From Psychrobacillus glaciei (GTDB lineage: Bacteria; Bacillota; Bacilli; Bacillales_A; Planococcaceae): DNA of 64,000 bases. Below, piece by piece: positions 9,800 to 55,500 of the stretch. The stretch's first letter is position 1. The number at the start of each line of letters is the position of its first letter. The stretch spans positions 1,240,001 to 1,304,000 of the forward strand of contig NZ_CP031223.1 in assembly GCF_008973485.1 (NCBI RefSeq), read 5' to 3'. The notes beneath the pieces were generated by a model. That model searched no databases, had not been told where the DNA came from, and saw nothing but the letters and a program-made list of their open reading frames with translations. The translations under genes were made by a program, and so were the position numbers.

Positions 9800-9999
9800 A
9801 AAAAATATATCTTTTCTCTATCATTTCCAAAAGGGAGACGGACAAAAAATCGCCACAAGATGACCGAAAAAAAGATCGTGAAGTGACGCAGTCACTTCAC
9901 GATCTTTTGCTCTAACGGTAATAGTGTAGCCTAGGTTTAGTCCAAAGCACTCGGGAATTGGTTAAGACAAGATGCACTTAAAGGACACCTGTTTTTTTC
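9800..9999 (+). repeat. Module A repeat, copy A1 (5'-truncated)
   Basis: Contains the GGAGACGGAC ... CGCCACAAGATGACCG stretch, the central stem (9870-9907: AAAAGATCGTGAAGTGAC, loop GCA, perfect complement), TAATAGTGTAGCC, AGTCCAAAGCACTC and the T-rich end. The left 130 bp of the full module is missing. The right end touches the stop codon of the minus-strand speA gene. On the minus strand the stem is followed by seven Ts. Confidence 0.85.
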
Positions 10000-11469
10000 T
10001 CATTTAATCGCTTGTCGTTCCTTAATAACATGAATCATTTCTAATGTATCATCTTCTGGACCTTGAACAGGTAAACCTGCTTCTATATTCATCCGGATAT
10101 AATCGATATTACCTTGCGTAATTATTTCCCCGGGAATAAAAATAGGAATTCCAGGTGGATATACCATCACAAACTCAGCGGAAATACGTCCTTCTGCTCT
10201 TTTTAGAGGAATAGATTCCGTTTGTGCGTAGAAAGCATCACGAGGGGACATAGCTAGTCCGGGTATATCAGGTAAAGTAACAGATGGTTCTACTATTACT
10301 GCGTCGGATTCAAATGCTGTTACCATTCGAACGAGGGCATTCACAAGTAAGTTTGCCTCTTTTTTAGTATCCCCAATTGTAAACAAGCAAAGAATGTTAT
10401 ATAAGTCTGACAGTTCTACTTCGATATTTGCATTTTCTCTTAACCATGATTCTGCAGCATATCCGGTAATCCCTAAATTTTTCACACTAATTAATAACTT
10501 TGTTGGATCCATATCATATGTCGCCGAAGAAATTAAAACTTCCTCCCCTACACAACGTAAATGAGGAATTTTATTAATCCGCTTCCGAGTATCCTTCGCA
10601 AGTCTAATTGTTTCTCCTATTAAATCTTCCCCATGAATTGCTAACTGTCTTCTAGCGGTATCTAATGATGCTAACAAAGGATAGGAAGTAGAAGTGGTAG
10701 TAAGCATAGATATAATGGATTGAACACGTTTAGCTGAAACTAAACCTTCTCTAACGTTTAAAACCGAAGTTTGTGTCATCGATCCGCCGAGTTTATGAAC
10801 GGAAGTGGCAGCCATATCTGCTCCTGCTGACATTGCTGAAACTGGTAGCGATGGATGAAAATGAATATGAACACCATGCGCTTCATCTACTACTACAGGA
10901 ATACCATGTTTATGTGCCATATCAACTATCTTTTTTAAATCAGCTGCAAAACCAAAATACGTTGGATTTATTACGAGTAAACCTTTTGCATCTGGATGTG
11001 CCTCCAAAGCTTTTTCAACAGACTCTGCAGAAATACCGTGAGAAATACCTAACTCTTTATCAACTTCTGGATGAATAAATACAGGTATAGCTCCTGCAAA
11101 AACGATTGCTGACATAATAGATTTATGAACATTTCGTGGGACTAGTAACTTATCGCCAGGTCCACAAATAGTAAGGATCATTGTCATAATTGCACCACTT
11201 GTACCTTGGACAGAAAAAAATGTTTGATCTGCACCAAAGGCTTCAGCAGCTAATTGTTGTGCATGTTTAATGGCACCTTTAGGGGAATGTAAGTCATCTA
11301 AAGGGGCAATATTGATTAAATCTATGGAAAGTACATTATCTCCAACAAACTCTCGAAATGCAGGGTCCATCCCTTTCCCTTTTTTATGCCCTGGAATATG
11401 AAACTGGATAGGATGACGGTTACGATGCTTTAGTAATGCATCGAACAAAGGAGTTTCTAATTGTGACAA
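10000..11469 (-). CDS. speA: Arginine decarboxylase (Orn/Lys/Arg decarboxylase, SpeA type)
   Basis: PLP enzyme converting arginine to agmatine, first step of polyamine synthesis via agmatinase. It is of fold type I, 489 residues, like B. subtilis SpeA (490). PLP features visible: substrate-side HIPGHKKGKG near the N-terminus, DEAHG (D195) and the Schiff-base lysine K226 in SVHKLGGS. Start is TTG at 11469, 8 nt after AGAGGTGG; an ATG in the spacer is out of frame. Position after pdhD matches B. subtilis synteny, interrupted by the efflux, deacetylase and Lrg genes. Specificity for arginine rather than lysine rests on synteny and overall likeness. Confidence 0.9.
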   Translation of the reverse strand: MSQLETPLFDALLKHRNRHPIQFHIPGHKKGKGMDPAFREFVGDNVLSIDLINIAPLDDLHSPKGAIKHAQQLAAEAFGADQTFFSVQGTSGAIMTMILTICGPGDKLLVPRNVHKSIMSAIVFAGAIPVFIHPEVDKELGISHGISAESVEKALEAHPDAKGLLVINPTYFGFAADLKKIVDMAHKHGIPVVVDEAHGVHIHFHPSLPVSAMSAGADMAATSVHKLGGSMTQTSVLNVREGLVSAKRVQSIISMLTTTSTSYPLLASLDTARRQLAIHGEDLIGETIRLAKDTRKRINKIPHLRCVGEEVLISSATYDMDPTKLLISVKNLGITGYAAESWLRENANIEVELSDLYNILCLFTIGDTKKEANLLVNALVRMVTAFESDAVIVEPSVTLPDIPGLAMSPRDAFYAQTESIPLKRAEGRISAEFVMVYPPGIPIFIPGEIITQGNIDYIRMNIEAGLPVQGPEDDTLEMIHVIKERQAIK

Positions 11470-11510
11470 CGTTCATACCACCTCTAGTATTATTTTTTAA
11501 AAACAAATGA

Positions 11511-11539
11511 ATTATAGCATTTCCTTACTTTTATGACTA
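11511..11539 (-). promoter_or_regulatory. Probable sigma-A promoter of speA
   Basis: On the minus strand TAGTCA, 17 bp spacer, then a perfect TATAAT, about 40 nt before the speA start. Confidence 0.6.
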
Positions 11540-11606
11540 TAAAAATATTTGTGATTTGAATCTGAGTGTTATTTCTTTTACACTAAAGAGCATTGGGGGG
11601 ATAAAA

Positions 11607-12566
11607 TTGGTATTTCGTACAAGCGTATCTGATTTATTGGAAATTGAATACCCAATCGTCCAAGGGGGACTCGCTTATTTGGCATATTCCGGACTATGTG
11701 CAGCTGTTTCGAATGCAGGTGGGCTTGGTCAAGTAACAGCAATGAGCTTAACAACACCGGAAGAATTGCGGGAAGAGATAAACAAGGTTAGAGTACTAAC
11801 GGATAAACCTTTTGGTGTAAATTTTGCTATTGGGCAAATGGGAAGACCTTATGAGAAAATGTTGCAAGTTGCAATTGATGAGAATGTTCCGGTTATTACG
11901 ATGACAGGAGGAAACCCAGCTCCTATCTTAGAAAAACTTGCAAATACAACAATAAAAAAACTAGTATTAGTAGCCGCTAAACACCAAGCACTAAAAGCAG
12001 AACAACTTGGTGCTGATGCTGTAATGGTCGTCGGACAAGAAGGAGGTGGGCATTTAGGGAGAGATGACGTTGGCACAATGGTATTGATCCCTCAAGTGGT
12101 AGATGCAGTATCAATCCCCGTAATTGCATCAGGAGGTATATCGGACGGCAGAGGTTGGATGGCTGCTCACGCACTAGGTGCACAGGGAATTGAAATGGGT
12201 ACTCGCTTTATCGCTACAAAAGAATGTGTCCATGCTTCCACTGCATATAAAAATGCAATAGTAGAAAGTGGAGAAATGGATACGATCGTCATTAAACGTT
12301 CGATAGGTGCCCCAGCTAGAGCTATTAAAAATAGTTGGACAGAAACGATTCGAAGTATTGAAAAGGAAAATCCGACATATGATGCTTTAAAGGACTACAT
12401 TAGTGGTGAAGCAAATAAACGCTTTATCTACGAAGGTAACTCCGAAAAGGGATTTGGATGGGCAGGTCAGGGAATAGGTCTAATAACGGATATTCCTACC
12501 GTAGAAGAATTATTTAGTCGAATGGTAGATGAAGCAACAGAAATACGAAGAAAATGGAAATTATAG
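11607..12566 (+). CDS. FMN-dependent nitronate monooxygenase / FabK-like oxidoreductase
   Basis: TIM-barrel flavoprotein of the nitronate monooxygenase family, which oxidises alkyl nitronates such as propionate-3-nitronate, or in the FabK branch reduces enoyl-ACP. Seen: [30 protein letters not shown] with the conserved His, [11 protein letters not shown] and [13 protein letters not shown] (phosphate and FMN binding). Start is TTG at 11607, 6 nt after GGGGGG, giving 319 residues; homology would not extend to the longer frame upstream. It shares the intergenic region with divergent speA and leads into yktA. The substrate cannot be decided from sequence. Confidence 0.85.
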
Positions 12567-12577
12567 GAGGTACTAAA

Positions 12578-12847
12578 ATGGACTATACATATCCATTCTC
12601 GCTAGACTGGTCGACCAATGAAATTATAGATGTAGTGCAGTTTTTTGAGGCAATCGAAAATGCATATGAAAAAGGTGTAAAGCGTGAAGAACTACTGAAA
12701 AAGTATCGTCGCTTTAAAGAAATTGTTCCATCTATTGCAGAAGAAAAAACATACTTTCGTGAATTTGAAAAAGAAAGTGGGTATGCAAGCTATCCAATCA
12801 TTAAAAAAATGAAAGAAAATACGGATGGAGTGTTGATTAGAGGTTGA
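12578..12847 (+). CDS. yktA: UPF0223 family protein YktA
   Basis: Small cytosolic protein of 89 residues starting [16 protein letters not shown], the signature of the UPF0223 family. No biochemical function is known. TAGGAGG overlaps the stop codon of the preceding flavoprotein gene, so the two are co-translated. It lies next to yktB as in B. subtilis. Just after it, CCTCCAATA (12853) and TATTGGAGG (12882) can form a hairpin without a T-run. Confidence 0.9.
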
Positions 12848-12897
12848 AAAACACCTCCAATAGGTTGTTTATAAGGCAAATTATTGGAGGAATCCTC

Positions 12898-13527
12898 TTA
12901 CTTGATATTAATCATGGTTCTATAAATTGGTAGTAATTGCTCGAAAGTCTCTTCCGCTAAAAGTAAAAATTCCTCTTCTGAAAGTTTTACTGCTTCTTCT
13001 TTAGCGATATGTCTACCTACAAGAAATTCTCCTTTTTTTACATCACGTAGCCGAGTTAATAATTGCTCAAGATCAGTTTTTTTAGCATTCTTCAGAAGAA
13101 TTGCTTCTTGCTTCATATGATCACCCGAAACAATAAAATCACTTGGAATTCTATTAAACAATGATTTTTTCTTTAATAGTCTTTCGGCAATGACAACTTT
13201 ATCGGGAGCCTCATAGATGACTGCCAAAATAAGAAATAAATGACTTCCCCATAAGCCAATTTGGAAATGAGGTAATGCTTTATATCCCCTTTTATAAGGT
13301 GAAAATGCTACCCAACTATCTTTGGGAGGATTTACAGAGCGTCTAGCATGTTTTGCAACATGGGCAAAGTATTCATCTCCGAGGACACCAGAAAAGAATA
13401 AGCTATACTTTTTTCCTAATTCCTCAAATTTTGGACGTATATTGGAGCTTAATGCTTCCATTCTATTCTCTAACCCATCTATTTGGAATACGTTAAAATC
13501 TTTCTCTTCCCAAAATTTCTTACTCAT
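12898..13527 (-). CDS. yktB: UPF0637 (DUF1054) family protein YktB
   Basis: Cytosolic protein of 209 residues with the family pattern FWEEKDFNVFQIDGLENRM at the N-terminus, VAKHARRSVNPPKDSWVAFS and the hydrophobic LWGSHLFLILAVI core. Function unknown. The ATG at 13527 is preceded by AAAGGAG at 7 nt; upstream codons in the longer frame are not family-like. It is convergent with yktA. Confidence 0.9.
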   Translation of the reverse strand: MSKKFWEEKDFNVFQIDGLENRMEALSSNIRPKFEELGKKYSLFFSGVLGDEYFAHVAKHARRSVNPPKDSWVAFSPYKRGYKALPHFQIGLWGSHLFLILAVIYEAPDKVVIAERLLKKKSLFNRIPSDFIVSGDHMKQEAILLKNAKKTDLEQLLTRLRDVKKGEFLVGRHIAKEEAVKLSEEEFLLLAEETFEQLLPIYRTMINIK

Positions 13528-13678
13528 TTGAAAACTCCTTTCACTTTGTATGTTTATTTTATAGCAAATATGGGTAAAAATCATGTAAGTAGAATTTTTG
13601 ATTGACAATTATTTTATATAAGCGTAAATTATTATAAATATTTTGAATATTATAATAAAAAGTGAAGGGGTGTTAGTA

Positions 13679-13876
13679 ATGAGACAGGTTGTTCATATTA
13701 TTCGTAAAAATGACTTGGAAAGAGAAAAAATTTTCACATTGAAATTGGAGTTGGACTATGAATTAGCTACTCTTTTTGATGCAATCAGTAATAAAAATGA
13801 AAAAGAAATATACCAAACCAAAGTTAAGTTAATGGAAATTCATAATTCGTTGAAAGAACTAAATGCACTTGACTAA
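13679..13876 (+). CDS. ykzI: Small conserved protein YkzI
   Basis: 65-residue, strongly charged, probably all-helical protein (MRQVVHIIRKNDLEREKIF...). Size and position between yktB and yktC match B. subtilis YkzI. AAGGGGTG precedes the ATG. No function is known. It is followed by its own terminator. Confidence 0.8.
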   Translation: MRQVVHIIRKNDLEREKIFTLKLELDYELATLFDAISNKNEKEIYQTKVKLMEIHNSLKELNALD

Positions 13877-13902
13877 CGTTTTACTTTTGAACAACACATA
13901 GA

Positions 13903-13940
13903 AAACACCTGCTTAATTGAAAGACAGCTGGTGTTTTTTT
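13903..13940 (+). terminator. Intrinsic terminator after ykzI
   Basis: AAACACCTGC and GCTGGTGTTT form an imperfect stem followed by a run of Ts. Confidence 0.75.
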
Positions 13941-13985
13941 CTTTATACTTAAAAGGCAAGGTGATGTGAAGAGAGGGTGGATATA

Positions 13986-14777
13986 GTGAATTTACATAAG
14001 CTGGATAAATATGCCAAATCTTTAATCAAGGTAGCAGCTGGAAGAATAAGATCTTCTTTTGCAACGGATCTATTAATTGAAACAAAATCTGAAGCAAATG
14101 ATTTAGTGACAAATATAGATAAGGAAACGGAACAATTTTTTATCCATCATATAAAACGTGATTATCCAGATCACCGTATTTTGGGAGAAGAAGGTTTCGG
14201 AGATGACATACATGATTTAGACGGCTATGTATGGATGTTAGATCCAATCGATGGCACAATGAATTTCATTCACCAAAAAACGAACTTTGCTATATCTTTA
14301 GGGATATTTAAAGATGGGGTAGGAATACTTGGTTATATCTATAATGTGATGGATGACGTTTTAATATCTGCAACCCTAGATGAAGGAGCATTTATAAATG
14401 ATATTCGTATTCCAACGGTTAAACAAGTGAACTTGGAGCAATCTATCATTGGTATTAATGCAAGTTGGGTGGTTCCAAATAAATACATGGAGCACGAGGG
14501 AATGGTGAAGCTTTTACAAAAAGTTAGAGGCACTAGATCGTATGGTTCAGCAGCAATTGAAATATCCTATGTAGTTACAGGGAAACTGGATGCCTACATG
14601 TCTATGCGTTTATCACCGTGGGATATCGCAGGCGGGATGATAATTGCGAAAGAAGTTGGGGCAATCGTAACAAATCTTGCAAATGAACCTGTTAATTTGT
14701 TAGGACAAGGAACTTTTCTTATTGCGAAGCCAAGTCTGCATAAAGAATTAATAACTAATTATATTCAATTAAAATAA
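13986..14777 (+). CDS. yktC: Inositol monophosphatase family protein YktC
   Basis: Mg2+-dependent, Li+-sensitive phosphatase of the IMPase/FBPase superfamily, hydrolysing inositol-1-phosphate or similar sugar phosphates. All three metal motifs are present: GEEG (E68, E69), DPIDGT (86-91) and SPWDIAGG near residue 212. GTG 13986 is preferred over GTG 13977 because GAGAGGG sits 8 nt before it, giving 263 residues. In vivo substrate is not known. It is single in its transcript, ending at a strong hairpin. Confidence 0.92.
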   Translation: MNLHKLDKYAKSLIKVAAGRIRSSFATDLLIETKSEANDLVTNIDKETEQFFIHHIKRDYPDHRILGEEGFGDDIHDLDGYVWMLDPIDGTMNFIHQKTNFAISLGIFKDGVGILGYIYNVMDDVLISATLDEGAFINDIRIPTVKQVNLEQSIIGINASWVVPNKYMEHEGMVKLLQKVRGTRSYGSAAIEISYVVTGKLDAYMSMRLSPWDIAGGMIIAKEVGAIVTNLANEPVNLLGQGTFLIAKPSLHKELITNYIQLK

Positions 14778-14782
14778 GAAAT

Positions 14783-14812
14783 GGTCGGCAAAATTAATTG
14801 CCGACCTTCTTT
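14783..14812. terminator. Terminator between yktC and ylaF
   Basis: GGTCGGCAA (14783-14791) pairs perfectly with TTGCCGACC (14798-14806); T-rich on the right. Confidence 0.85.
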
Positions 14813-14996
14813 ATAATAATCCTTTATCACGCATTTTTTTCTTTGTTTTAAAACCATAGCCCATGATTACGCAAAGTAGAGCAATGCTAAGGATAATTAA
14901 TAAGAAGCTTCTTAATGCTATAGCAATTCCGATAAATGCCATAGACAAAATTGCCCCAAGAGAATATAGAACAAAAATCCATTTGATATTGGTCAA
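14811..14996 (-). CDS. ylaF: Small membrane protein YlaF
   Basis: About 61 residues with two membrane helices (WIFVLYSLGAILSMAFIGI and LLIILSIALLCVIMGYGF) and a basic C-terminal tail. TTG at 14996 follows GGAGG by 8 nt. Position next to typA and size match B. subtilis YlaF. Function unknown. Confidence 0.8.
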   Translation of the reverse strand: MTNIKWIFVLYSLGAILSMAFIGIAIALRSFLLIILSIALLCVIMGYGFKTKKKMRDKGLL

Positions 14997-15031
14997 AATG
15001 ATTACCTCCAAAAATAAAAGATTAAAAATAT

Positions 15032-15060
15032 TATTACTTTAGTTTCACTTGTGATATAAT
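15032..15060 (+). promoter_or_regulatory. Extended -10 promoter of typA
   Basis: TGATATAAT is a perfect extended -10 element (15052-15060) with only a weak -35 (TATTAC) 17 bp upstream. Confidence 0.65.
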
Positions 15061-15101
15061 AACACAGTTATGGACTCGAAAAAAGAATATGGAGTGGAAA
15101 T

Positions 15102-16949: not shown

Positions 16950-16970
16950 GAACTGAAAGGGTGAATAACC

Positions 16971-17355: not shown

Positions 17356-17407
17356 AGACTGTAGGAAAACTCGATTATTATCGAGTTTTCCTACAGTCTT
17401 TTTTCTT
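17356..17407 (+). terminator. Strong terminator after ylaH
   Basis: AGACTGTAGGAAAACTCGA (17356-17374) pairs perfectly with its complement ending at 17399; four-base loop and T-run follow. Stem of about 20 bp. Confidence 0.95.
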
Positions 17408-17419
17408 TTACGAGCACCT

Positions 17420-17600
17420 TCTCTCTAGGGATCTCAAGAAGGAGAAAGACAAATAATCGTCACAAGATTACCGGAAAAAATGGATCGTGAAGTGATGTAG
17501 TCACTTCACGATCCATAGCTTTAAATAGTAATAGTGTAACTTGTGTTTTAGGCGATGCACTAAGGAAATAGTGAAAACGAGACCAATTAAAGAATTAGTT
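17420..17600 (+). repeat. Module A repeat, copy A2 (5'-truncated)
   Basis: Includes CACAAGATTACCGG, the central stem at 17481-17515 (TGGATCGTGAAGTGA and its complement, loop TGTAG), AATAGTGTAAC and a degraded right end. Six As precede the stem. It sits directly behind the ylaH terminator and 240 bp before copy A3. Confidence 0.8.
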
Positions 17601-17699: not shown

Positions 17700-17800
17700 A
17701 TGGTTGCTTTCAAGATAAAATTGGTTGCTTAGTTCATGGATTGGTTGCTTTCAGTGTAGAATCTGTAGTTTTCACCTTACAATTAGTCGCTCTTTGACAG
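17700..17800 (+). repeat. Five short imperfect direct repeats, about 20 bp period
   Basis: TGGTTGC occurs at 17701, 17722 and 17742, then weaker units follow at about 17763 (CTGTAGTT) and 17783 (TTAGTCGC). The spacing of 20-22 bp is two helical turns. The stretch lies between two module A copies with no gene around it. Confidence 0.55.
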
Positions 17801-17837: not shown

Positions 17838-18172
17838 ACCGGTAATCCTGTGAAATTTGAGAAAAATAGGTAGCAGCTCTTGATAAAGAAGTGCAGAGCG
17901 GACGAAATTACATCTTCGTTCGTTCTTAAAAGAATAGGAAAGGATTTATTCTCTCATTATCCATACTTTATGTACCTTGTTTCAACATATTCTAAGAGGG
18001 CGACGGACAAACATCCGCCACAAGGTTACCGAAAAAATGGATCGTGAAGTGACGTAGTCACTTCACGATCCACAAAAATTCCAACGGTAATAGTGTAGCA
18101 ATTGTTTTGTCCAAAGCACTCAGGAATTGGTAAAGGCCAGATACACTTAAAAGACGTTTGCGTTTTCCTTAG
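17838..18172 (+). repeat. Module A repeat, copy A3
   Basis: Near full-length. It starts CCGGTAATCCTGTG, then the first hairpin (17893-17922, AGCGGACGAA against TTCGTTCGTT, kept pairable by two G-T wobbles), GAGGGCGACGGAC, the central stem at 18038-18072 (TGGATCGTGAAGTGAC, loop GTA), and a T-rich end at the stop codon of ylaI. Confidence 0.85.
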
Positions 18173-24226: not shown

Positions 24227-24350
24227 GTTGATTTCCGCTGCATGCAGCCGCTTTCCTGAAGCAAACAAATCAAGCCGTTTCCTTCGTTACGCTTTAGTCC
24301 GGGGTCTTGATTAGTTTGCTAATATCCTAGGAGTCGCCGCTTTCCACTCC
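24227..24350 (+). repeat. Module B repeat, copy 4
   Basis: Starts GTTGATTTCCGCTGCATGC and ends GGAGTCGCCGC ... CCACTCC. Inside, GCAAACAAATCAAG and TCTTGATTAGTTTGC are near-perfect inverted repeats, a different central stem from copies 2 and 5 within the same outer frame. It precedes module A4 by about 180 bp. Confidence 0.75.
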
Positions 24351-24527
24351 ACTCAACAGTGCAAATAAGTAAGACAATATGCTTTGTCTAAATAATGAAT
24401 TAGTGATTATAAGGAGTATTTAGACGGAGATGCATAGGGTAGGACCGGATAACTGGAAACTTTCAACTCGCTAGGTCTTGATTTTTATTTTTTTCTTTTA
24501 TTTGCAATTTCTAAAGGAGAAATTATT

Positions 24528-24870
24528 CATTGGGTAGATGATTAGAGTTGGTGGAACCTAAAAAAATAGATAGCAACTATTGTTAAAGAAGCGCTGAGCG
24601 GACGAAATTGCATCTTCGTCCACTTTTAAAAGAATACGAAAGGTTTTATTCTCTCATTATCCAAACCTTATGTACCTTGTATCTACATATTTCAAGAGGG
24701 CGACGGACCCACATCCGCCACAAAATTAACGAAAAAAGAGAATCTGGATTTGACCGAGTCACATCCAGATTCTCCATAAAAGTTCTCGTTAATTGTGTAT
24801 CCAATGTTTAGTCCGAAGCACTCAGGGAATATTGAAGACAAGAAGCTGTTAAAGGGAGCTTAGGTTTAAC
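24528..24870 (+). repeat. Module A repeat, copy A4
   Basis: Full-length. Its central stem (24738-24774) has its own sequence, GAGAATCTGGATTTGAC, loop CGA, partner GTCACATCCAGATTCTC with one mismatch, while the framework around it is as in other copies. The enclosing arms also change together, ATTAACGA with TCGTTAAT instead of ATTACCG with CGGTAAT. It ends at the ctaA stop codon. Confidence 0.88.
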
Positions 24871-31143: not shown

Positions 31144-31182
31144 AAGCGGGACTAAGTTTATTCTTAGTCTCGCTTTTTTTTT
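31144..31182 (+). terminator. Terminator of the ctaCDEF operon
   Basis: AAGCGGGACTAAG pairs with CTTAGTCTCGCTT around the loop TTTATT, then nine Ts. Confidence 0.95.
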
Positions 31183-31204
31183 GGTAACTGGCATATAGTG
31201 TCTC

Positions 31205-31290
31205 TGACGTTTAATCCAAAGCACTTGGGAAACTGTAAAGACTATTTTCACATACCCTTAAAGGACGCTTACGTTTTCTCAAAGATGGAA
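31205..31290 (+). repeat. Module A remnant (right end only)
   Basis: Contains TTTAATCCAAAGCACTTGGG and CCCTTAAAGGACGCTTACG, the right-hand 85 bp of module A, without hairpins. It lies immediately upstream of a B-A island. Confidence 0.7.
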
Positions 31291-31350
31291 GAATAACTTT
31301 ACCGTATAGTGTCATTACAAAATTCAATGCTGCATCTTCCGTTTTTCTTA

Positions 31351-31598
31351 AAAGATAAGAAAGTATTTGGGTTATCGTATTGCGAAACCAGCGTTCATAG
31401 TACTTTAAAGAATTATATAATACCGTGGATTTTCGTTTCAGGTGGACGCGTTCCGCGGGGGTGCCGCATTCGCGTCGTTTGCGATGGCACATCTGTCTCC
31501 GAGGAACGAAGGCTAAGAGCGCCACATCGTGTGGCAACGCCTTCGTGACCAACATCCTGTTGGCCTCCGTCTGGAGTCGCCACCTTTCACTGCAATCC
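31351..31598 (+). repeat. Module B repeat, copy 5, with its left flank
   Basis: The left flank (GATAAGAAAGTAT ... GTTCATAGTACTTTAAAG) is shared with the islands at 33670 and 54837. The GC-rich part starts GTGGATTTTCG at 31425 and ends TGCAATCC. The segment at 31510-31565 repeats the inner part of copy 2. Open frames across it on both strands are not genes. Confidence 0.8.
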
Positions 31599-31734
31599 AT
31601 TAAGCGAGTAGTACCTAACAAGAAGATTTTGCCCAGCTATCGCTAAGAATCCAGTATTAGTAAGGAATCATAGTATAATTTCAAGGCTTAGATCTTTAGT
31701 TTTTTTAGTTTTCCGTACACAGTATACACGAATC

Positions 31735-32117
31735 AGTGGGTGTAACATTAGAGTAGGTGGTACTAGAGAAAAATAGATAGCACCCATTATTAAAGAAGCG
31801 CTGAGCGGAGGAAATTGCATCTTCATCCGCTTTTAAAAGAATAGGAAAGGATTTATTCTCTCATTAACCAAAACAAATGCATTAAGTCTTTACATTTTTC
31901 AAGAAGGCGACGGACACACAACCGCCACAAGATTACAGAAAAAAGTGGATTGAGAAGTGACGCAGTCACTTCTCAATCCACAGAAATTCCCATGGAAATA
32001 GTGTAGCCAAAATTCTTTTTGCGACGAGTAACCGCAGGAGCAGATGTTTCGTCCAAAGCACTCTAGAAATAGAGAAGACAAAATGAACTTAAAGGACGCT
32101 TGCGTTTTTCTTATTTG
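31735..32117 (+). repeat. Module A repeat, copy A5
   Basis: Full-length, with an extra insertion of about 35 bp after AATAGTGTAGC. The central stem (31945-31981) is GTGGATTGAGAAGTGAC, loop GCA, and its exact complement; it differs from the main version at three positions on both arms. Ends GGACGCTTGCGTTTTTCTTA, just before the ctaG promoter. Confidence 0.9.
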
Positions 32118-33607: not shown

Positions 33608-33622
33608 ATCAACTATAAAAAT

Positions 33623-33668
33623 AAAACAGTAGTCAGCGTAATTATGCTGGCTACTGTTTTATTCTTTC
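33623..33668 (+). terminator. Terminator after the DUF420 gene
   Basis: AAAACAGTAGTCAGC pairs with GCTGGCTACTGTTTT (one wobble), followed by a T-rich stretch. Confidence 0.88.
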
Positions 33669-33669
33669 T

Positions 33670-34024
33670 TTAAAGATAAGAATGTATATGGATTATCGCC
33701 ATGCGAAGCGAGTGTTCATAGTACTTTTAAGAATTACATAATACCGCGGATTTCCGTTTCAGGTGGACGGGTTCGTAGTGATGGCTCATTTGTCTCACTC
33801 ATGTGGCCACTGAAAAAGTCCAGTTTTCCATAAAATTAAAATTTCATTCCCGAAAAAAGTTATTTTTAGCTACTAAAGTTGGGGGGATTCTGCTTAATCT
33901 CATGGTTTTACCTATAAAAGCAGGGGTGAGAATTTTCGGTATTTTCAAATTTAAATATTTAGTCACTTTTTCAGTGGCATTTCACTTATCTCGCTGGAGT
34001 CGCCACCATCACTTCAATCAATTC
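33670..34024 (+). repeat. Module B repeat, copy 6, split by an inserted element
   Basis: Left flank as in the other islands (GATAAGAATGTATATGGATTA), GC-rich start GCGGATTTCCGTTTCAGGTGG at 33746 and right end GGAGTCGCCACC. The middle is interrupted by a 173 bp element with terminal inverted repeats. Confidence 0.75.
33806..33978. mobile_element. Small non-autonomous insertion (MITE-like)
   Basis: GCCACTGAAAAAGT at 33806-33819 and its exact complement ACTTTTTCAGTGGC at 33965-33978 are 14 bp terminal inverted repeats bounding 173 bp without a transposase. It sits inside module B copy 6. No convincing target-site duplication was seen. The ends recall those of IS elements common in Bacillales, but the family was not identified. 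Confidence 0.7.
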
Positions 34025-34084
34025 TAGGTAAAACTTTATTGTTTTTACTTTTACTTTTACTTTTCCCGAAAAAAGTTTAAGCGA

Positions 34085-34428
34085 TCCTGTGTAAAAATGA
34101 TTATGGTGGACTTGTCGAAAAATAGATAACATTCCTAGATAAAGAAGTGCTAAGCGGACGAAATTGCATCTTCGTCCGCTTTTAAAAGAATAGGAAAGGA
34201 TTTATTCTTTCATTATCCAAACCTTATGTACCTTGTCTCTAACTATTCCAAGAGGGCGACGGACAAACATTTTCTACAAGATTACCAGAAAAATGGATCG
34301 TGAAGTGACGCAGTCACTTCACGATCCACAAAAAAACACCGGTAATAGTGTAGCGATGCTTCGTCCAAAGCACTCTGGGAATAGAGAAGACAAGAGCGCT
34401 TAAAGTATGCTAGCATTTTTCTTAGTCT
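34085..34428 (+). repeat. Module A repeat, copy A6
   Basis: Full-length; central stem 34294-34328 (TGGATCGTGAAGTGAC, loop GCA). Preceded by five As. The upstream 30 bp (TTTTACTTTTACTTTTCCC) is shared with the start of copy A9. Ends 18 bp before the stop of the minus-strand permease gene. Confidence 0.88.
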
Positions 34429-40533: not shown

Positions 40534-40617
40534 TATAACTTATTAAAATAACTGTCCAGAAACCAGCAACTGTTTCAAGAGGTCGCAGCACTAATACCCG
40601 TTACAAAAAACGACCAC

Positions 40618-40975
40618 AATAATCATGAATCAGTGGGTAGATGATTAAAGTAAGTGGTTCTTGAGAAAAATGGATAGCATCTATTGAAAAAGAAGTGCTG
40701 AGCGGAAGAAATTGTATATTCGTCCGCTTTTAAAAGAATAGGAAAGCATCTAATCTCTCATTAACCAACCCTAATGCATCATGTCTCTACAAATTCCGAG
40801 AGGGCGACGTACAAACATTCGCTACAAGATTACCGGAAAAAAAGGATCGTGAAGTGACACAGTCACTTCACGATCCTTTGCTCTAACGTTAACAGTGTAG
40901 CCTAGATTTCGTCCAAAGCACTATGAAAAAGGTGAAAATAAGATGCACTTAAAGGACGCTTCCGTTTTTCTTACA
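40618..40975 (+). repeat. Module A repeat, copy A7
   Basis: Full-length; central stem 40841-40879 (AAAGGATCGTGAAGTGAC, loop ACA). Seven As precede the stem core. Ends CGCTTCCGTTTTTCTTAC, 28 bp before the stop of the minus-strand phosphodiesterase gene. Confidence 0.88.
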
Positions 40976-48830: not shown

Positions 48831-48854
48831 CGATCAAATCCTTTCCTTAATCCA

Positions 48855-48883: not shown

Positions 48884-48892
48884 GAAATTATC

Positions 48893-48921: not shown

Positions 48922-48950
48922 AAATTTTGTTGTCTTGAGGTGATAATCGT

Positions 48951-49484
48951 ATGAAATGGGCAATTCATCAATTAGCTAAATATCGTGATAACGGGATGAC
49001 GTTAGATGAATTCGTGACTCTCCAAAATGTGAAGGAACGGAACCCAGACGTTCGAAGTATTTCACCCGTTCATGTAGAAGGGCACTGCACGTTTGGTGCA
49101 GCGCAAATGACTTGTCATTTTCAGCTTTCAGGGACGCTCATTTTGCCTTGTGCTCGCACTTGGGAAGATGTAGAATACCCATTTGAAATTCATTCTGATG
49201 AAATTTTCAGCTGGTCTGAAAATGCATCTGCTTTCGACTATGATAACTTCCATATAGTAGAAGGTGATGTCATTCAAGTAGATCCAGTTCTAGAAGAGTT
49301 AATCCTACTAGAAATTCCTTTGCAAGTGTATAAAGAAGGTGCAGACCAATTTAAACACGAAGGTGGAAACGGCTGGTCATATACAACAGATGAAGATTTA
49401 AATGATTTGCAAGAAAATGATCAACCAAAATTGGATCCAAGACTAGCTCAATTAGCTAAGTATTTTGATCAAACAGACGAATAA
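48951..49484 (+). CDS. ylbN: YceD/DUF177 family protein YlbN
   Basis: 177 residues, the partner encoded with L32 in most bacteria and implicated in 23S rRNA accumulation or processing. Features: HVEGHCTFGAAQMTCHFQL, LILPCARTWEDVEYPFE and the acidic C-terminal LDPRLAQLAKYF. GAGGTGA precedes the ATG. Confidence 0.92.
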   Translation: MKWAIHQLAKYRDNGMTLDEFVTLQNVKERNPDVRSISPVHVEGHCTFGAAQMTCHFQLSGTLILPCARTWEDVEYPFEIHSDEIFSWSENASAFDYDNFHIVEGDVIQVDPVLEELILLEIPLQVYKEGADQFKHEGGNGWSYTTDEDLNDLQENDQPKLDPRLAQLAKYFDQTDE

Positions 49485-49508
49485 TAGATCTGTAAGGAGG
49501 TGCCAACA

Positions 49509-49682
49509 ATGGCAGTACCAGCTAGAAGAACTTCTAAAACTGTAAAAAGAAAACGTCGTACACATTTTAAATTATCCGTACCTGGTATGGTTGCTTGTCC
49601 AAATTGTGGTGAAATGAAATTGGCTCACCGAATTTGTAAATCATGCGGTCAATACAAAGGGAAAGAAGTAGTGAGCAAATAA
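49509..49682 (+). CDS. rpmF: 50S ribosomal protein L32, zinc form
   Basis: 57 residues starting [19 protein letters not shown], with two CxxC pairs (CPNC, CKSC) for a structural zinc, i.e. the C+ form. AAGGAGG is 9 nt before ATG 49509. Cotranscribed with ylbN and ended by a terminator. Confidence 0.97.
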
Positions 49683-49698
49683 TTCAGTATTTGTTCCT

Positions 49699-49742
49699 TA
49701 AAAGACTACCAAAGAGACCATGGCTCTTCGGTAGTCTTTTTC
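49699..49742 (+). terminator. Terminator after rpmF
   Basis: AAAGACTACC AAAGAG pairs with CTCTTCGGTAGTCTTT (one mismatch), followed by Ts. Confidence 0.92.
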
Positions 49743-49776
49743 TCTATTTATATTTTTCAAAGAGGATGTGCTTACG

Positions 49777-50538
49777 GTGGCTTATTCAATCGAAATAAAA
49801 GGCGAAATACTTATTTTTGAAATAAATAGACCTACCATTCACAATGCCATTAATAAAGAAGTAATAGAAGGATTTAAGCAATTCATACATAGCGTAAAAA
49901 CAAATAAAACAATTAAACTGGCTGTAATTACAGGAGCAGGAGACAAGTCATTTTGCTCCGGAGGAGATTTAACTGTCTTTCATCAATTGAAAACGGAAAA
50001 AGAATCGTTTGGTATGTTAAGTGAAATAGCTAAAATTCTCTATGAAGTAGCTACTTTATCGATTCCGACGATGGCGCTAATTAACGGTACTGCTGTTGGT
50101 GGAGGTTGTGAAATAGCTACATTATGTGATTATCGTCTAGTAAAAAAAGAAGCAAAATGCGGATTTATTCAAGGTAAATTAGCAATTACTTCAGGGTGGG
50201 GTGGAGGAACGTATTTGTTTGAAAAGGGAATGAAACATGATTATGCTCTTCGAATGCTTACAGAAGCTGAGCCCTATTCTGCGGACCAATTATTATCGAT
50301 TGGATGGGCAACTGAACTTTTTGAGGGAGATAAACTAGCAGCATTAAATAAGTTTACTCGTAAAATGATTGTTCCTCATTCCTCTGTTTTACAAGCCTAT
50401 AAAACCCAAGTGATTCGAAAATGGGAGCAAACGAAATTATATGAACGTGTGATGGAAGAAGTAGCAACATGTGCGGTTCTTTGGGAGCAAGAAATTCATC
50501 ACGAGGCAGTTGATTTATTTTTAGAGAAAAAGAAATAA
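49777..50538 (+). CDS. Enoyl-CoA hydratase/isomerase (crotonase) family protein
   Basis: 253 residues from GTG 49777 (AGAGGA upstream). Crotonase fold with oxyanion-hole segments SFCSGGDL and INGTAVGGGCEIA. The two hydratase glutamates are not obvious; the region reads CGFIQGKLAITSGWGGG, which resembles the GWGG-type pattern of (m)ethylmalonyl-CoA decarboxylase-like members rather than classical hydratases. Function is therefore open. It lies 0.6 kb upstream of an acyl-CoA carboxylase gene set. Confidence 0.82.
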   Translation: MAYSIEIKGEILIFEINRPTIHNAINKEVIEGFKQFIHSVKTNKTIKLAVITGAGDKSFCSGGDLTVFHQLKTEKESFGMLSEIAKILYEVATLSIPTMALINGTAVGGGCEIATLCDYRLVKKEAKCGFIQGKLAITSGWGGGTYLFEKGMKHDYALRMLTEAEPYSADQLLSIGWATELFEGDKLAALNKFTRKMIVPHSSVLQAYKTQVIRKWEQTKLYERVMEEVATCAVLWEQEIHHEAVDLFLEKKK

Positions 50539-50599
50539 AATCTAGAGTCTATTTGTACCCACTTTGCATATATTAGTAAAAAAGCAAAGGGTGATAAAC

Positions 50600-50992
50600 A
50601 TGAATGTTAAAATTAGAAAAGATAGCTGGTCCGTGGAAGAAGACAATCTTTTAAAAGAGTTAGTTTTAAAGAAAATAGAGCAGGGTCATACGCAAATTTC
50701 TGGATTTGAAGAAGCAAGCATTTTGTTAGGTCGCTCCAAACAAGCTTGCGCTTTTAGGTGGAACAAAAACCTACGACCAATTGTCCTGCAAAGAAAAACG
50801 TCTGTAAAACCTACAGTTGCGAAAGAAGTTCCTGACTCTTCTACTTTACAAAACCATCTACAGTTGGCTATGGAAAGTTATGATGAAATGAGACAGTCAT
50901 ATGATGAAATTGCTAATGCCTACAATTTGTTAAAAAGAGATTATGAACAATTAGTAAATTGGGTAAAACAAGGAATAACACATATAGAATAA
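50600..50992 (+). CDS. rsfA: Prespore-specific regulator RsfA (YlbO)
   Basis: 130 residues: N-terminal Myb/SANT-like helix-turn-helix (DSWSVEEDNLLKELVLKKIEQG ... GRSKQACAFRWN; the tryptophans are typical) and a C-terminal coiled coil (about 90-125). RsfA fine-tunes sigma-F genes in the forespore of B. subtilis. AAAGGGTG precedes ATG 50600. Place after rpmF agrees with synteny. Confidence 0.88.
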   Translation: MNVKIRKDSWSVEEDNLLKELVLKKIEQGHTQISGFEEASILLGRSKQACAFRWNKNLRPIVLQRKTSVKPTVAKEVPDSSTLQNHLQLAMESYDEMRQSYDEIANAYNLLKRDYEQLVNWVKQGITHIE

Positions 50993-51002
50993 GGTTTAAA
51001 TG

Positions 51003-51032
51003 AGGTCTCTAATAGTAGAGGCTTTTTTTTTT
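51003..51032 (+). terminator. Terminator after rsfA
   Basis: GGTCTCTA and TAGAGGCT form a short stem with wobbles, followed by nine Ts. Confidence 0.7.
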
Positions 51033-51129
51033 GAACAAAAAAATTTGCTATTTAGTTGAAATCGCTTTCATAATTCGTATAGACTAATAGGGGTGGGAAC
51101 ACGTTTTTTTTACTTAGGAGGTATGGATA

Positions 51130-52491
51130 ATGAAAAAAGTATTAATCGCTAACAGGGGAGAAATTGCTAGACGTATTATTAAGACGTGTAAAAAGATGAA
51201 CATTGAAACCGTAGCCATATACTCGGAAGCCGACGCAGAATTGCCATATGTGAAAGAAGCAGACTTTGCTTTTTTAATAGGTCCTAATCCGGTGTTACAA
51301 TCGTATTTAAAAGTAGATGATATTATTGAACTTGCAGTAAAAGAGAAAGTCGATGCAATTCATCCGGGATATGGATTTCTCTCGGAAAATGCAGATTTTG
51401 CTCGAAAAGCGGAAGCAGCAGGAATCACATTTATAGGGCCAAAACCAGAAACAATTGAAAAAATGGGAGATAAGATTGCATCTCGATTAACGATGATAGA
51501 AGCAGGAGTACCTGTCGTTCCTGGAACGGAAGAAGGCTTAACATCTATTGAGGCTGCAAAAGAGGCTGCATCTAAAATTGGTTACCCCATCATGTTAAAA
51601 GCAAGCGCAGGTGGCGGTGGAATTGGGATGATTCGTTGTGACGATGAGGAGACTTTAGAAAAAAACTTTGAATCGATTAAAACACGAGCGAAATCTTACT
51701 TCGGAAATGATGTAGTATTTTTAGAAAAATTCATTGATGCATCCCGTCATATTGAAGTGCAAATTTTTGGTGATAACGATGGAAATGTTGTGCATCTATT
51801 CGAACGTAATTGCTCAGTTCAACGAAGAAATCAAAAAGTACTGGAAGAATCGCCATCACCAAACTTTCCACAAGAAGCTCGTATAAAATTGTTTGAAGCG
51901 GCAGTTAAAGCGGCAAAAGCAGTAGATTATGTTAATGCGGGTACAGTAGAATTTATAGTGGATCAAAATCATCAATTTTATTTTCTAGAAATGAATACGA
52001 GACTCCAAGTAGAACATCCAGTAACAGAAGCGATTACAGGATTCGACTTAGTAGAATGGCAGTTAAAAGTAGCGGCAGGAGAACAGCTCCCTGTAAAAGA
52101 TCAGGATTCTATTTCTTCCAATGGACATGCCTTTGAATTTAGAATATATGCAGAGGATCCAAAGACATTCTTTCCTTCACCAGGAACAATTATTCGCCAA
52201 TATTGGGGAGATGAAGGTGGTATTCGAGTAGAAGCAGGATATGAAGAAGGAAACAAAGTAACCCCTTTTTATGATCCGATGATTTCTAAAGTAATAATTC
52301 ATGCAGAAAATAGGGATATGGCAATAGAGAAAGCGCAAAAAGTATTCTCTTCTGCTAAAATAGAAGGTGTGAAAACAAATATTGACTTGTTTCACCAATT
52401 TTTAGATGCAGAAAGTTTTAAAAGTGGCATTTATTCAACATCCGTTTTAGGGGAATGGATGCAACAACAAAGGGAGGAAGTTTCAAAATGA
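51130..52491 (+). CDS. Biotin carboxylase subunit of an acyl-CoA carboxylase
   Basis: ATP-grasp enzyme carboxylating biotin. 453 residues with ANRGEIARRI, ATP loop GGGGIGMIR, HIEVQIFGD and the catalytic EMNTRLQVEHPVTE. TTAGGAGG lies 8 nt before the ATG. It heads a three-gene unit (carboxylase, biotin carrier, carboxyltransferase) like B. subtilis yngH-yngHB-yngE, not the fatty-acid accBC pair. Substrate may be propionyl- or another branched acyl-CoA. Confidence 0.9.
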   Translation: MKKVLIANRGEIARRIIKTCKKMNIETVAIYSEADAELPYVKEADFAFLIGPNPVLQSYLKVDDIIELAVKEKVDAIHPGYGFLSENADFARKAEAAGITFIGPKPETIEKMGDKIASRLTMIEAGVPVVPGTEEGLTSIEAAKEAASKIGYPIMLKASAGGGGIGMIRCDDEETLEKNFESIKTRAKSYFGNDVVFLEKFIDASRHIEVQIFGDNDGNVVHLFERNCSVQRRNQKVLEESPSPNFPQEARIKLFEAAVKAAKAVDYVNAGTVEFIVDQNHQFYFLEMNTRLQVEHPVTEAITGFDLVEWQLKVAAGEQLPVKDQDSISSNGHAFEFRIYAEDPKTFFPSPGTIIRQYWGDEGGIRVEAGYEEGNKVTPFYDPMISKVIIHAENRDMAIEKAQKVFSSAKIEGVKTNIDLFHQFLDAESFKSGIYSTSVLGEWMQQQREEVSK

Positions 52492-52700
52492 AAAATTTAG
52501 AATCAACAATGGCGGGTACAGTATTTACGGTAAATGTAGCAGTGGGAGAAGAGGTATCCGTTGGTCAAATAGTAATGGTGTTAGAATCAATGAAAATGGA
52601 GATTCCTATGGAAGTAGAAGTGGCTGGTAAGATAGCTACGATTCTTGCAAAAGAAGGAGATTTTGTGAACGAAGGAGACGTTCTAGTAACGTTTGAATAA
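52488..52700 (+). CDS. Small biotin/lipoyl attachment protein
   Basis: 70 residues, a single biotinyl domain with the motif ESMKMEI and modified lysine K36. Start ATG 52488 overlaps the carboxylase stop as ATGA, and GGGAGG is upstream, so the two are translationally coupled. Resembles B. subtilis YngHB. It carries carboxy-biotin between the neighbours' active sites. Confidence 0.9.
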   Translation: MKNLESTMAGTVFTVNVAVGEEVSVGQIVMVLESMKMEIPMEVEVAGKIATILAKEGDFVNEGDVLVTFE

Positions 52701-52737
52701 GTGAATTTCATGTGCTTTAAATAAGGGGGTCTTCAAA

Positions 52738-54279
52738 ATGGGAGAAAAAAAGGCGTATAATGAACGTCTAGAAGAAAAGCTTACATCCATTTTTTCAGGT
52801 GGTCATTCAAAATATCACGAAAAAATGAAAGAACAAAAAAAATTATTTGTTCGCGATCGTTTAGCATTACTTTTTGACAATGGGGAATATATAGAAGATG
52901 GTCGCTTTGCGAATGTAGAAGCTGGTGACCTACCAGCTGATGGTGTTGTCACTGCTACTGGAAAAGTGAATGGACAAACTGTGTGTGTAATGGCGAATGA
53001 CTCAACGGTGAAGGCTGGTTCATGGGGATCACGCACGGTTGAGAAAATTATTCGAATACAAGAAATAGCAGAAAAAAATAGAGTCCCAATGTTGTATTTA
53101 GTAGACTCAGCAGGTGCTCGCATAACGGATCAATTAGATATGTTTCCTAATCGCAGAGGAGCAGGGAAAATATTTCACAATCAAGTAAGAATATCTGGAC
53201 TCATCCCGCAAATCTGCTTATTATTTGGTCCTTCAGCAGCGGGCGGTGCTTACATACCAGCATTTTGTGATTTAGTAATTATGGTTGAAGGAAATGCTTC
53301 TATGTACTTAGGTTCACCACGTATGGCTGAAAAAGTAATTGGTGAAAAAGTAACCTTGGAAGAAATGGGTGGAGCTCGTATGCACTGTACGGTTAGTGGA
53401 TGTGGGGATGTACTTGTAACTTCTGAGGAAGAAGCTATTTCGGAAGCGAAAAGATATTTAAGTTTTTTCCCAGCAAACTATACGGAAAAGCCTAAAAAAG
53501 TAGAACCTTTAAAAGCAAAAGAAGGAAGAACACTAGAGGAAATTATTCCTGAAAACCAAAATGCTCCATTTGATATGTATGAAGCAATCGACGCGTTAAT
53601 TGACGAGGGTTCATTTTTTGATGTAAAAAAATTGTTCGCGCCTGAGTTAATTACAGGTTTTGCTCGTATTGAAGGGCAAGCAGTTGGAATTATTGCAAAC
53701 CAGCCAAAAGCTAAAGGTGGAGTACTTTTTGTAGATTCTGCAGATAAATCGGCGAAATTTATTTCTCTTTGTGATGCATTTTCCATTCCTTTATTATTTT
53801 TAGCGGATGTCCCTGGATTTATGATTGGAACAAAGGTAGAGCGCGCGGGAATTATTCGCCATGGTGCGAAACTAATTGCAGCAATGAGTTCTGCAACTGT
53901 TCCAAAAATCTCGGTAATAGTTCGTAAAGCATATGGGGCGGGTTTATATGCGATGGCAGGACCAGCATTTGAGCCGGATGTGTGTATTGCGCTTCCTACC
54001 GCACAAATTGCTGTTATGGGCCCAGAGGCAGCTGTTAACGCTGTTTACTCCAATAAAATTGAAGCAATTGAAGATCCAAAAGAACGATTAAAGTTTGTGC
54101 AAGAAAAGCATGCTGAATATAAAGAAGAAATTGATATTTATAAATTAGCTTCTGATATGATTATTGATGAGATTGTTGCACCAAGTGATTTACGCAACGA
54201 GCTTGCAAATCGTTTTAGATACTACGAAAATAAAGAAGTTTTGATAGCACCTCGAAAACATCCAGTGCTTCCTGTTTAA
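52738..54279 (+). CDS. Acyl-CoA carboxylase carboxyltransferase subunit (PccB/YngE type)
   Basis: 513 residues with tandem crotonase-like domains. Seen: DSAGARITDQLDMFPNRRGAG, FGPSAAGGAYIPAFCD, and in the second half KFISLCDAFSIPLLFLADVPGFMIG and RKAYGAGLYAMAG. These fit propionyl-CoA or methylcrotonyl-CoA carboxylase beta chains. GGGGG precedes the ATG, 37 nt after the biotin carrier. Which acyl-CoA is used cannot be read from the sequence. Confidence 0.92.
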   Translation: MGEKKAYNERLEEKLTSIFSGGHSKYHEKMKEQKKLFVRDRLALLFDNGEYIEDGRFANVEAGDLPADGVVTATGKVNGQTVCVMANDSTVKAGSWGSRTVEKIIRIQEIAEKNRVPMLYLVDSAGARITDQLDMFPNRRGAGKIFHNQVRISGLIPQICLLFGPSAAGGAYIPAFCDLVIMVEGNASMYLGSPRMAEKVIGEKVTLEEMGGARMHCTVSGCGDVLVTSEEEAISEAKRYLSFFPANYTEKPKKVEPLKAKEGRTLEEIIPENQNAPFDMYEAIDALIDEGSFFDVKKLFAPELITGFARIEGQAVGIIANQPKAKGGVLFVDSADKSAKFISLCDAFSIPLLFLADVPGFMIGTKVERAGIIRHGAKLIAAMSSATVPKISVIVRKAYGAGLYAMAGPAFEPDVCIALPTAQIAVMGPEAAVNAVYSNKIEAIEDPKERLKFVQEKHAEYKEEIDIYKLASDMIIDEIVAPSDLRNELANRFRYYENKEVLIAPRKHPVLPV

Positions 54280-54335
54280 TAATTATAACTTTATTCAGTA
54301 AGTAGGAATAAAGTTAAATTTTCTAGTAATTTGAT

Positions 54336-54369
54336 AAAAAAAGGTCTACCATAATGGTAGACCTTTTTT
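54336..54369 (+). terminator. Terminator of the carboxylase operon
   Basis: AAAAAAGGTCTACC and GGTAGACCTTTTTT around ATAAT; perfect 14 bp stem including A/T ends. Confidence 0.95.
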
Positions 54370-54489
54370 AAAAGATAATAAAGTATATGAATCTTGGATG
54401 CTAGAAATCCTATAATAGTAAAGATTCATAGTATAATTTCAAAGGTTTGATCTTGATTTTTTAGTTTTAACGTCCACAGTGTACATGAA

Positions 54490-54835
54490 TCATTGCGTGT
54501 ATGATTAGAGTAGGTGGTACTAGAGAAAAATAGATAGCATCCATGTATAAAGAAGCGCTGAGCGGACGAAATTACATCTTCTTTCGCTTTTTAAAGAATA
54601 GGAAAGTATCTAATCTCTCATTAAACAAACCTTACGCACCTTGTCTCTACCTATTCCAAGAGGGCGACGGACAAACATCCGCCACAAGATTACTGAAAAA
54701 GTGGATCGTGAAGTGACGCAGTCACTTCACGATCCACAAAAAACACCGGTAATAGTGTAGCGATGATTCGTCCAAAGTACTCTGGGAATCGAGAATACAT
54801 GAGCACTTAAAGGACGCTAGCGTTTTTTTAAACAG
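54490..54835 (+). repeat. Module A repeat, copy A8
   Basis: Full-length; central stem 54701-54737 (GTGGATCGTGAAGTGAC, loop GCA). The 80 bp upstream (GATTCATAGTATAATTTCAA) are shared with the stretch before A5. Ends GGACGCTAGCGTTTTTTT. Confidence 0.9.
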
Positions 54836-54836
54836 A

Positions 54837-54985
54837 AAGTGAAAGTATATGGATTATTAACCTGCGAAACCAGTATTTATTGTACTTTAAAGAATTCAAT
54901 AATACCGCGGATTTCCGTTTCACACGTTCGTTGAGATGGATCATCGCTCACCCCGCGAAAAGCGTTCGCCCTGCAGTGGAAATCC
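54837..54985. repeat. Module B repeat, copy 7, rearranged
   Basis: The left flank and start (GCGGATTTCCGTTTCA) are as usual, but the other end is a second left end in inverse orientation (CGCCCTGCAGTGGAAATCC). So two left ends face each other around 50 bp and the normal right end is lost. Confidence 0.7.
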
Positions 54986-55164
54986 TTACGGTAACTAACT
55001 TAATGCACACTATATAAACAATACGGTCTTTGCCCAATTTAATAAGGGTAACGCTAGTTCATATAGATGCTACATAGATTAAGTTAAACGGTAATTTACT
55101 GGTCATTTTTGGCTAATCAACAGACCTGTTTTTACTTATACTTTTCCTATAAAAATTAAACTGA

Positions 55165-55500
55165 TTCTGTGTGAATATGATTAGAACTGGTGGACCTATA
55201 TAAAAATAGATAGCATTCATAGATAAAGAAGTGCTGAGCGGACGAACATGTATCTCCGGCCTCCCTTAAAAGAGTAAAAAAGCATCTTAACTCTCATTAT
55301 CCGAACCAAATGCATCAAGTCTTTACATATTCCAAAAGGGCGACGGACAAACTCTCGCTACAAGATTACTGAAAAAAGTGGATGGAGAAGTGACCGCGTC
55401 ACTTCTCCATCCACAAAAATTCCCTCGTTAATAGTGTAGTTGGTGTTTCTTCCAAAGCTCTCTGGAAACGGTAAAACAAGATACACCTAAAGGCCGCATG
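55165..55500 (+). repeat. Module A repeat, copy A9
   Basis: Full-length; central stem 55378-55414 is GTGGATGGAGAAGTGAC, loop CGC, exact complement, a third stem version. The first hairpin is degraded here. Its right end runs to about 30 bp before the panE ribosome site. DNA between copy 7 of B and A9 (54986-55164) is AT-rich and holds nothing recognisable. Confidence 0.88.

Follow-up and report, generated by a model that had tools for sequence, protein, structure and literature searches.

An apparently unnamed noncoding mobile family with a conserved fold, found behind terminators and directed with the replication fork in Psychrobacillus glaciei

A 64-kb stretch of the 4.33-Mb chromosome of Psychrobacillus glaciei (contig NZ_CP031223.1, positions 1,240,001–1,304,000; hereafter the window) carries many copies of an intergenic repeat, module A, and raises the question of what kind of element this repeat is and how it reaches its sites. 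The first-pass annotation, made from the sequence alone, had listed nine copies and one remnant. These positions were right, all copies lie on the + strand, and nhmmer recovered 10 module A pieces in the window, 10/10 on that strand. The intergenic, noncoding and structured character ascribed to the repeat was borne out as well. The picture that emerges is of a genuine noncoding family of cold-soil bacteria, mobile and well defined, which keeps a conserved fold and follows an unusual rule of target and orientation. This family is apparently unnamed: a literature search covering open papers, with subscription papers (e.g. on bcr elements) outside it, found no description of the element.

Module A is not the whole element: the first-pass annotation had missed a longer unit of which it forms the 3′ part. 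The full form of this unit spans window positions 31353–32111. Units measure ca. 0.46–0.76 kb, start with AAAGATAAGAAAGTATATG and end with a small hairpin followed by TTTTTCTTA. Among 23 units measured, five were 461–466 bp long, 13 were 678–764 bp and five had other values within 497–885 bp. The 5′ ends, 35 when redundancy is removed, begin with AAAGATAAG or a near variant, and the Psychrobacillus unit contains the short inverted repeat TAAGAAA/TTTCTTA. At loci L010 (1806, oriented) and L015 (1812, oriented) the 5′ motif is followed by a perfect hairpin, AAATGTACCATGAAC..GTTCATGGTACATTT; these forms are possibly a mini element consisting of the 5′ end only. A GC-rich portion of the 5′ half of the unit was also found alone, on both strands. 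Module A was absent from Rfam, with no match at the gathering level in the window and none at E ≤ 1 on L002, a locus that contains a complete unit. The view that the element matches nothing named is upheld for module A but not for the 5′ part of long units, which in both of those scanned holds a known Rfam family, Bacillaceae-1 (RF01690), outside module A. A second Bacillaceae-1 RNA lies at window positions 8158–8224 (−), away from any module A. A promoter scan found 12 promoters, against 11.7 expected. The reported lack of a transposase beside the copies was confirmed by eye in the twelve largest clusters of 408 neighboring open reading frames (ORFs), where neither a transposase nor a reverse transcriptase (RT) was seen. 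An autonomous partner adjoining the copies was rejected on present evidence, since the RT and Y1 proteins of this genome matched none of the 408 ORFs (≥100 aa; no family library was run on them). One RT-like and one Y1-like stretch occur elsewhere in the 143 records.

Further copies were looked for beyond the window and found. In 844 kb sampled from this genome, nhmmer detected 59 module A pieces, of which 38 came from the right arm (380 kb), 6 from the left arm (280 kb), 5 from 120 kb near the terminus and 10 from the window; a further 20 kb at the origin contained none. Copies were far denser in the sampled right arm (200–580 kb) than in the sampled left arm (3.60–3.88 Mb). The earlier estimate of hundreds of copies is supported, by extrapolation only, at roughly 300 pieces in 4.33 Mb, many of them fragments and unevenly spread. 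Position 1 of the chromosome is dnaA, recognized by its protein sequence, and the copies point with the replication fork: 40/41 best hits did so (40 of 207 candidates scored; tally by eye), as did 55 of the 59 sampled pieces and 50 of the 54 located in called gene gaps, compared with a proportion of leading-strand genes of 65–81%. Gene orientation as the sole cause of this bias was rejected because all copies between two lagging-strand genes (9/9) still followed the fork. In other genomes (designated by G numbers, this one being G000), a single strand change among the listed copies accounted for 18/18 in G008, 18/18 in G015 and 16/17 on contig 1 of G004; with 18 candidates scored per genome, by eye, and the origin not located, this is a pattern rather than proof. 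G003 was less clean, with 4/5 listed copies conforming and one further odd copy.

The junctions follow a rule of their own. By a strict test, 21 of the 35 non-redundant 5′ ends lie directly behind a hairpin and T-tract, compared with 1/35 at control positions 150–210 nt upstream and 0/35 in shuffled sequence. Of the 14 others, inspected by eye, 11 come directly after a different copy's 3′ end and three follow neither a terminator nor a copy. For at least three of the 21 junctions that pass the strict test, the terminator is itself the end of another copy; in G007, a single terminator is followed by two full units in tandem. The bases before the junction were TTTA in 10 of the 35 cases, CTTA in 6, TTTG in 4 and CTTG in 2. 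Among 550 called gaps, based on long, uncurated ORFs as gene calls and containing 54 of the 59 sampled pieces, copies occupied 19/115 convergent, 16/245 leading–leading and 7/73 lagging–lagging gaps, and none of 117 divergent gaps, versus 42/433 for all others.

Mobility of the element is well supported by empty sites. In a 40-kb pyc–cta block compared across 18 genomes including this one, seven genomes lacked any module A copy. The insert at window positions 31181–32112 (ca. 930 bp) corresponds to gaps of −5 to 26 bp in G011, G013, G014, G015 and G017; the gap behind pyc is filled in G000, G004, G005, G007 and G009 and measures 11–34 bp in G008, G014 and G015; and the site of the copy at 40610–40972 is nearly empty in G003, G006, G015 and G016. 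Other copies in this genome reach 96% identity to the query, whereas the best matches in relatives reach ca. 75% over at least 200 bp, which points to recent spread. Many copies are decayed. The statement that the copies lack target duplications and clear long terminal inverted repeats (TIRs) holds in Psychrobacillus, where 0/23 units were flanked by a target-site duplication (TSD; control 1/506) and TAAGAAA/TTTCTTA was the only terminal inverted repeat seen.

A covarying, pseudoknotted fold is kept in the 3′ 180–300 nt of the unit. The helices are P1 (AGC...CGAA/TTCG...GCT), the long-range P0, P2, the loop of which pairs with a downstream strand to form the pseudoknot, and P3, which encloses a hypervariable long stem, P4. 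In 32 sequences, 85.5% of cells were paired, versus 75.4% in shuffles (0/500 as high) and at most 42.8% when the structure was slid, the latter comparison being flattering as the structure was taken from one row (L034) of the 32 chosen sequences. Changes on both sides were seen in 34/58 pairs. The pseudoknot strands of 81 sequences scored 6.88 when matched, 5.74 with another copy from the same genus, 5.18 with another genus and 4.72 when shuffled; the pairing was absent from the alignment model, and 81 of 110 matches were kept, the others overlapping a better match. P4 was nearly perfect in 89 copies, with 1527 Watson–Crick pairs, 10 GU and 26 others. Read antisense, it is followed by a T-tract in 76/89 copies, while a sense T-run after P4 occurred in 0/89. 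Substitution rates in paired columns (C>T 0.079, G>A 0.034; unpaired columns 0.082 and 0.090) are asymmetric in a way that points to the sense strand. Against this signal, three of five helices had at least as many AC as GU cells (P1 13 AC and 6 GU, P0 60 and 58, pseudoknot 60 and 40), and P4 had 11 and 10. RNAalifold applied to the profile alignment gave nothing useful.

A covariance model built from 24 of the 32 sequences (leaving out L015, L119, L068, L082, L097, L044, L111 and L071) was used to search relatives. Matches were present in 26/151 genomes of a family sample and in 38/261 of an order sample: 19 in Psychrobacillus, 7 in genus g11, 11 in g3 and 1 in g14, so that the module A fold occurs in four genera. 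A pattern scan of named genomes, possibly not covering this one, returned 73 stretches, none of them outside Psychrobacillus, Paenisporosarcina and one Sporosarcina. At E ≤ 1e-6, G240 gave 62 matches, some of which may be antisense self-matches, and in G012 and G018 the sole strong match was one tandem pair each. A search for a source gene in low-copy genomes was unproductive, and so was a plasmid search.

In g3, which is probably Sporosarcina, the same fold has a different setting. Inspection by eye listed 23 inverted pairs of module A (16 in G240 and 7 in G268), comprising 46 of the 95 matches of these genomes, 413–655 bp apart; no inverted pair was present among the matches listed for G269. 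An imperfect 18-bp inverted repeat, CACGTCTGTTGATTAACC, was found with both its ends in 14 of 26 g3 loci, a set that included 20 selected as pairs, and 10 of these 14 elements had 8–9 of 9 bp duplicated (control 1/182). The module A fold forms the inverted arms of this element, each kind of arm retaining a pseudoknot version of its own (mean score 7.4 over 40 Sporosarcina-like sequences). The conclusion that the repeat is no miniature inverted-repeat transposable element (MITE) is accordingly confined to Psychrobacillus, as the g3 element that carries the fold is MITE-like, having TIRs and 9-bp duplications. A single structured domain apparently works in a TIR transposon as well as in an element that homes to terminators. 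An end resembling the g3 inverted repeat is also present at window positions 55111–55128, with no matching left end nearby.

How the Psychrobacillus unit inserts is suggested by other residents of the genome. P. glaciei holds group II introns, one of which sits behind a hairpin ending TTTTTTTA and followed by GTGCG; from features that include this start, we take it to be of class C. Class C (group IIC) introns are reported to insert directly behind rho-independent terminators and into the lagging-strand template (PMC8919778), and their recognition of the hairpin is treated in PMC3898094. Because the element shares both rules, we suggest that a similar machinery, possibly the same one, inserts it. 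Our tentative reading is of a noncoding, non-autonomous mobile unit whose mode of insertion resembles that of a group IIC intron, although the unit is not itself an intron. Its sense strand would fold and, at a terminator hairpin, enter the lagging-strand template where this is single-stranded, most likely in the form of an RNA–protein particle that borrows the RT of a resident group IIC intron, comparable to the way ORF-less introns or short interspersed nuclear elements (SINEs) use the enzyme of a partner. The unit's own 3′ hairpin and T-tract would recreate the target and give rise to tandem arrays, and the terminator-like antisense stem P4 may shield the unit from convergent transcription. 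Consistent with this reading, 17/18 RT matches in this genome are fork-directed (by eye; these are matches, several per element, not introns), and across genomes RT matches correlate with copy number (Spearman 0.57, p 0.01), with the count of first-look BLAST candidates as proxy; copies within one genome share ancestry and p values are rough. At five places on this chromosome (near 2.32, 2.35, 3.05, 3.22 and 3.56 Mb) two RVT_1 matches lie ca. 1.4 kb apart, an unusual double RT arrangement. A stronger version, which we regard as doubtful, would make the element a bacterial SINE-like retroelement, that is, a pseudoknotted noncoding RNA that parasitizes the group IIC RT, homes to terminators of the lagging template, recreates its target and was co-opted in a sister genus as the paired arms of a DNA transposon.

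Several observations weigh against insertion by the group IIC machinery. When G000 is left out, the RT correlation drops to 0.50 (p 0.04), and it takes no account of phylogeny; the element-bearing genomes G001, G016 and G018 have no RT match, G002 has only one, below the cut-off, and G012 has four with few copies. No group II family matched the full-unit locus L002 at E ≤ 1, and thereby none of the catalytic core (D5/D6, D1–D4) was found there; the intron loci do match. Truncation at the 5′ end, expected of reverse transcription, was only modestly favored (16 vs 5 by eye; p 0.013), and the sample had been selected by its 3′ module. In P4, sense-strand wobble is absent (10 GU, 11 AC), four of the 54 copies in gaps oppose the fork, the single G002 copy and one of two G011 copies in the pyc blocks are reversed, and the same fold moves as a TIR/TSD element in g3. 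In a rival account the element is an ordinary MITE moved by a DDE transposase, as in g3, the Psychrobacillus branch having kept one arm and lost the inverted repeats, with orientation and site bias arising from selection or from arm loss at the fork. The duplications and imperfect TIRs of g3, the frequent inverted pairing of g3 cores, the TAAGAAA/TTTCTTA repeat of the Psychrobacillus unit and the TIR-like relic in the window all agree with it. The absence of duplications from the 23 Psychrobacillus units does not, and a fixed junction behind terminators together with fork orientation of all nine copies between lagging-strand genes would be unexpected; we judge this origin improbable.

Fork orientation and the lack of duplications would suit single-stranded DNA transposition by an HUH (Y1) enzyme of the IS200/IS605 or REP/RAYT type (repetitive extragenic palindromes and their associated tyrosine transposases), in which the sense strand would be cut out and would join the lagging template next to a YTTR tetranucleotide, the terminal TAAGAAAG pairing with the T-tract of the target. 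The YTTR-like bases before the junction and the CTTA at the 3′ end fit such a route, as does a Y1_Tnp match in 18/19 genomes, single in 11 of the 18. It is nevertheless unlikely: six Y1 loci scanned had no copy of the element beside the Y1 gene, G002 has 18 model matches and no Y1 match, the 5′ hairpin scored weakly above shuffled sequence (7.8 vs 6.6), and both the targeting of terminators and the pseudoknot are left unexplained. A TnpB guide RNA as source of the fold was rejected, no TnpB zinc-ribbon match being found in 17/19 genomes, including this one. A Y1 (RAYT-like) transposase of 201 aa is encoded in this genome at G000:C1:998144-998482 (−), locus L166. Lastly, the copies might be functional RNA genes or transcription insulators under selection and with little present movement, the 3′ terminator acting outward and P4 stopping antisense transcription. 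Covariation of the fold and pseudoknot, the A-run before P4 in 76/89 copies with no T-run after it, the preference for convergent gaps and the retention of two tandem copies in both G012 and G018 would all be expected of such genes. Occupancy of the pyc block, however, varies by species, with 7/18 blocks free of copies, the high identity within the genome speaks of recent spread, and many copies are decayed; we hold this explanation very improbable.

Within the window, the copies differ in completeness. The copies at 9807 and 17414 are both 5′-truncated and begin at position 542 of the 741-nt unit. The former, identified from sequence and by nhmmer, occupies a convergent gap (9807–10000, unit 542–740); the latter (17414–17592, unit 542–723) adjoins the intrinsic terminator of the upstream gene, a hairpin and T-tract read from the sequence at 17359–17405 (+). 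A further copy follows at 17855–18169 (unit 426–740). A short GGTTGCTT repeat is found upstream of a copy, at 17701–17771, and similar stretches occur near some other copies. The copy at 24330–24867 (unit 221–736) lies between pyc and the next gene, presumably ctaA. The remnant exists, its true span being 31195–31277 (unit 661–737), and it adjoins the terminator of the upstream gene. Behind it, the 5′ terminal motif AAAGATAAGAAAGTATTTG at 31351–31369 opens the full-length unit (31353–32111, unit 1–740), composed of the 5′ part and of module A with a small insertion; the Rfam scan placed its Bacillaceae-1 RNA at 31497–31563 (+), and P4 forms an antisense, intrinsic-terminator-like hairpin with T-tract at 31945–31981 (−). 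Immediately 5′ of the next unit, an intrinsic-terminator-like hairpin occupies 33620–33663 (+). This unit (33672–34422) has its 5′ motif from 33672, followed by unit positions 1–147 and 356–740, with P4 as an antisense terminator-like hairpin at 34293–34329 (−). The copy at 40610–40972 comprises unit positions 377–741. A short-class unit at 54371–54828, directly behind a terminator, has the 5′ motif fused to positions 266–739, and behind this copy stands a unit at 54841–55509 (positions 7–89 and 363–740). All these copies are on the + strand.

The family is large and spans four genera, its ends are exact, it shows a rule of target and a rule of replication direction, and its fold can be tested. 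It opens the questions of how inserting elements recognize terminator hairpins, of whether bacteria host noncoding RNA parasites of RTs, and of how two such different elements can make use of one structured domain. Known systems resemble it in part. Group IIC introns have the 5′ end consensus GUGYG, from which the AAAGATAAG starts of the element differ; ORF-less group II introns exist, so the missing RT is not decisive. The likeness lies in the choice of site, immediately after intrinsic terminators and on the lagging-strand template (PMC8919778), and in the resident group II intron at the same kind of site, while the element differs in having no group II family match, another 5′ end, no ORF, and a fold and pseudoknot of its own. 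MITEs and the bcr1–bcr18 repeats of the Bacillus cereus group are likewise short, noncoding and interspersed, some being structured and transcribed (PMC3446304); terminator targeting, fork orientation and lack of TSDs in Psychrobacillus set the element apart, the comparison with bcr being one of description. REP/REPIN sequences with their RAYT are similar in that noncoding palindromic copies abound and the genome has a Y1 gene, but REPs are 20–40 bp long and GTAG- or CGTC-tagged (PMC3733652), unlike a pseudoknotted element of ca. 0.46–0.76 kb. Bacillaceae-1 RNA, finally, is not part of module A and is also found apart; both long units scanned carry it in their 5′ part, which places this Rfam family inside a mobile unit.

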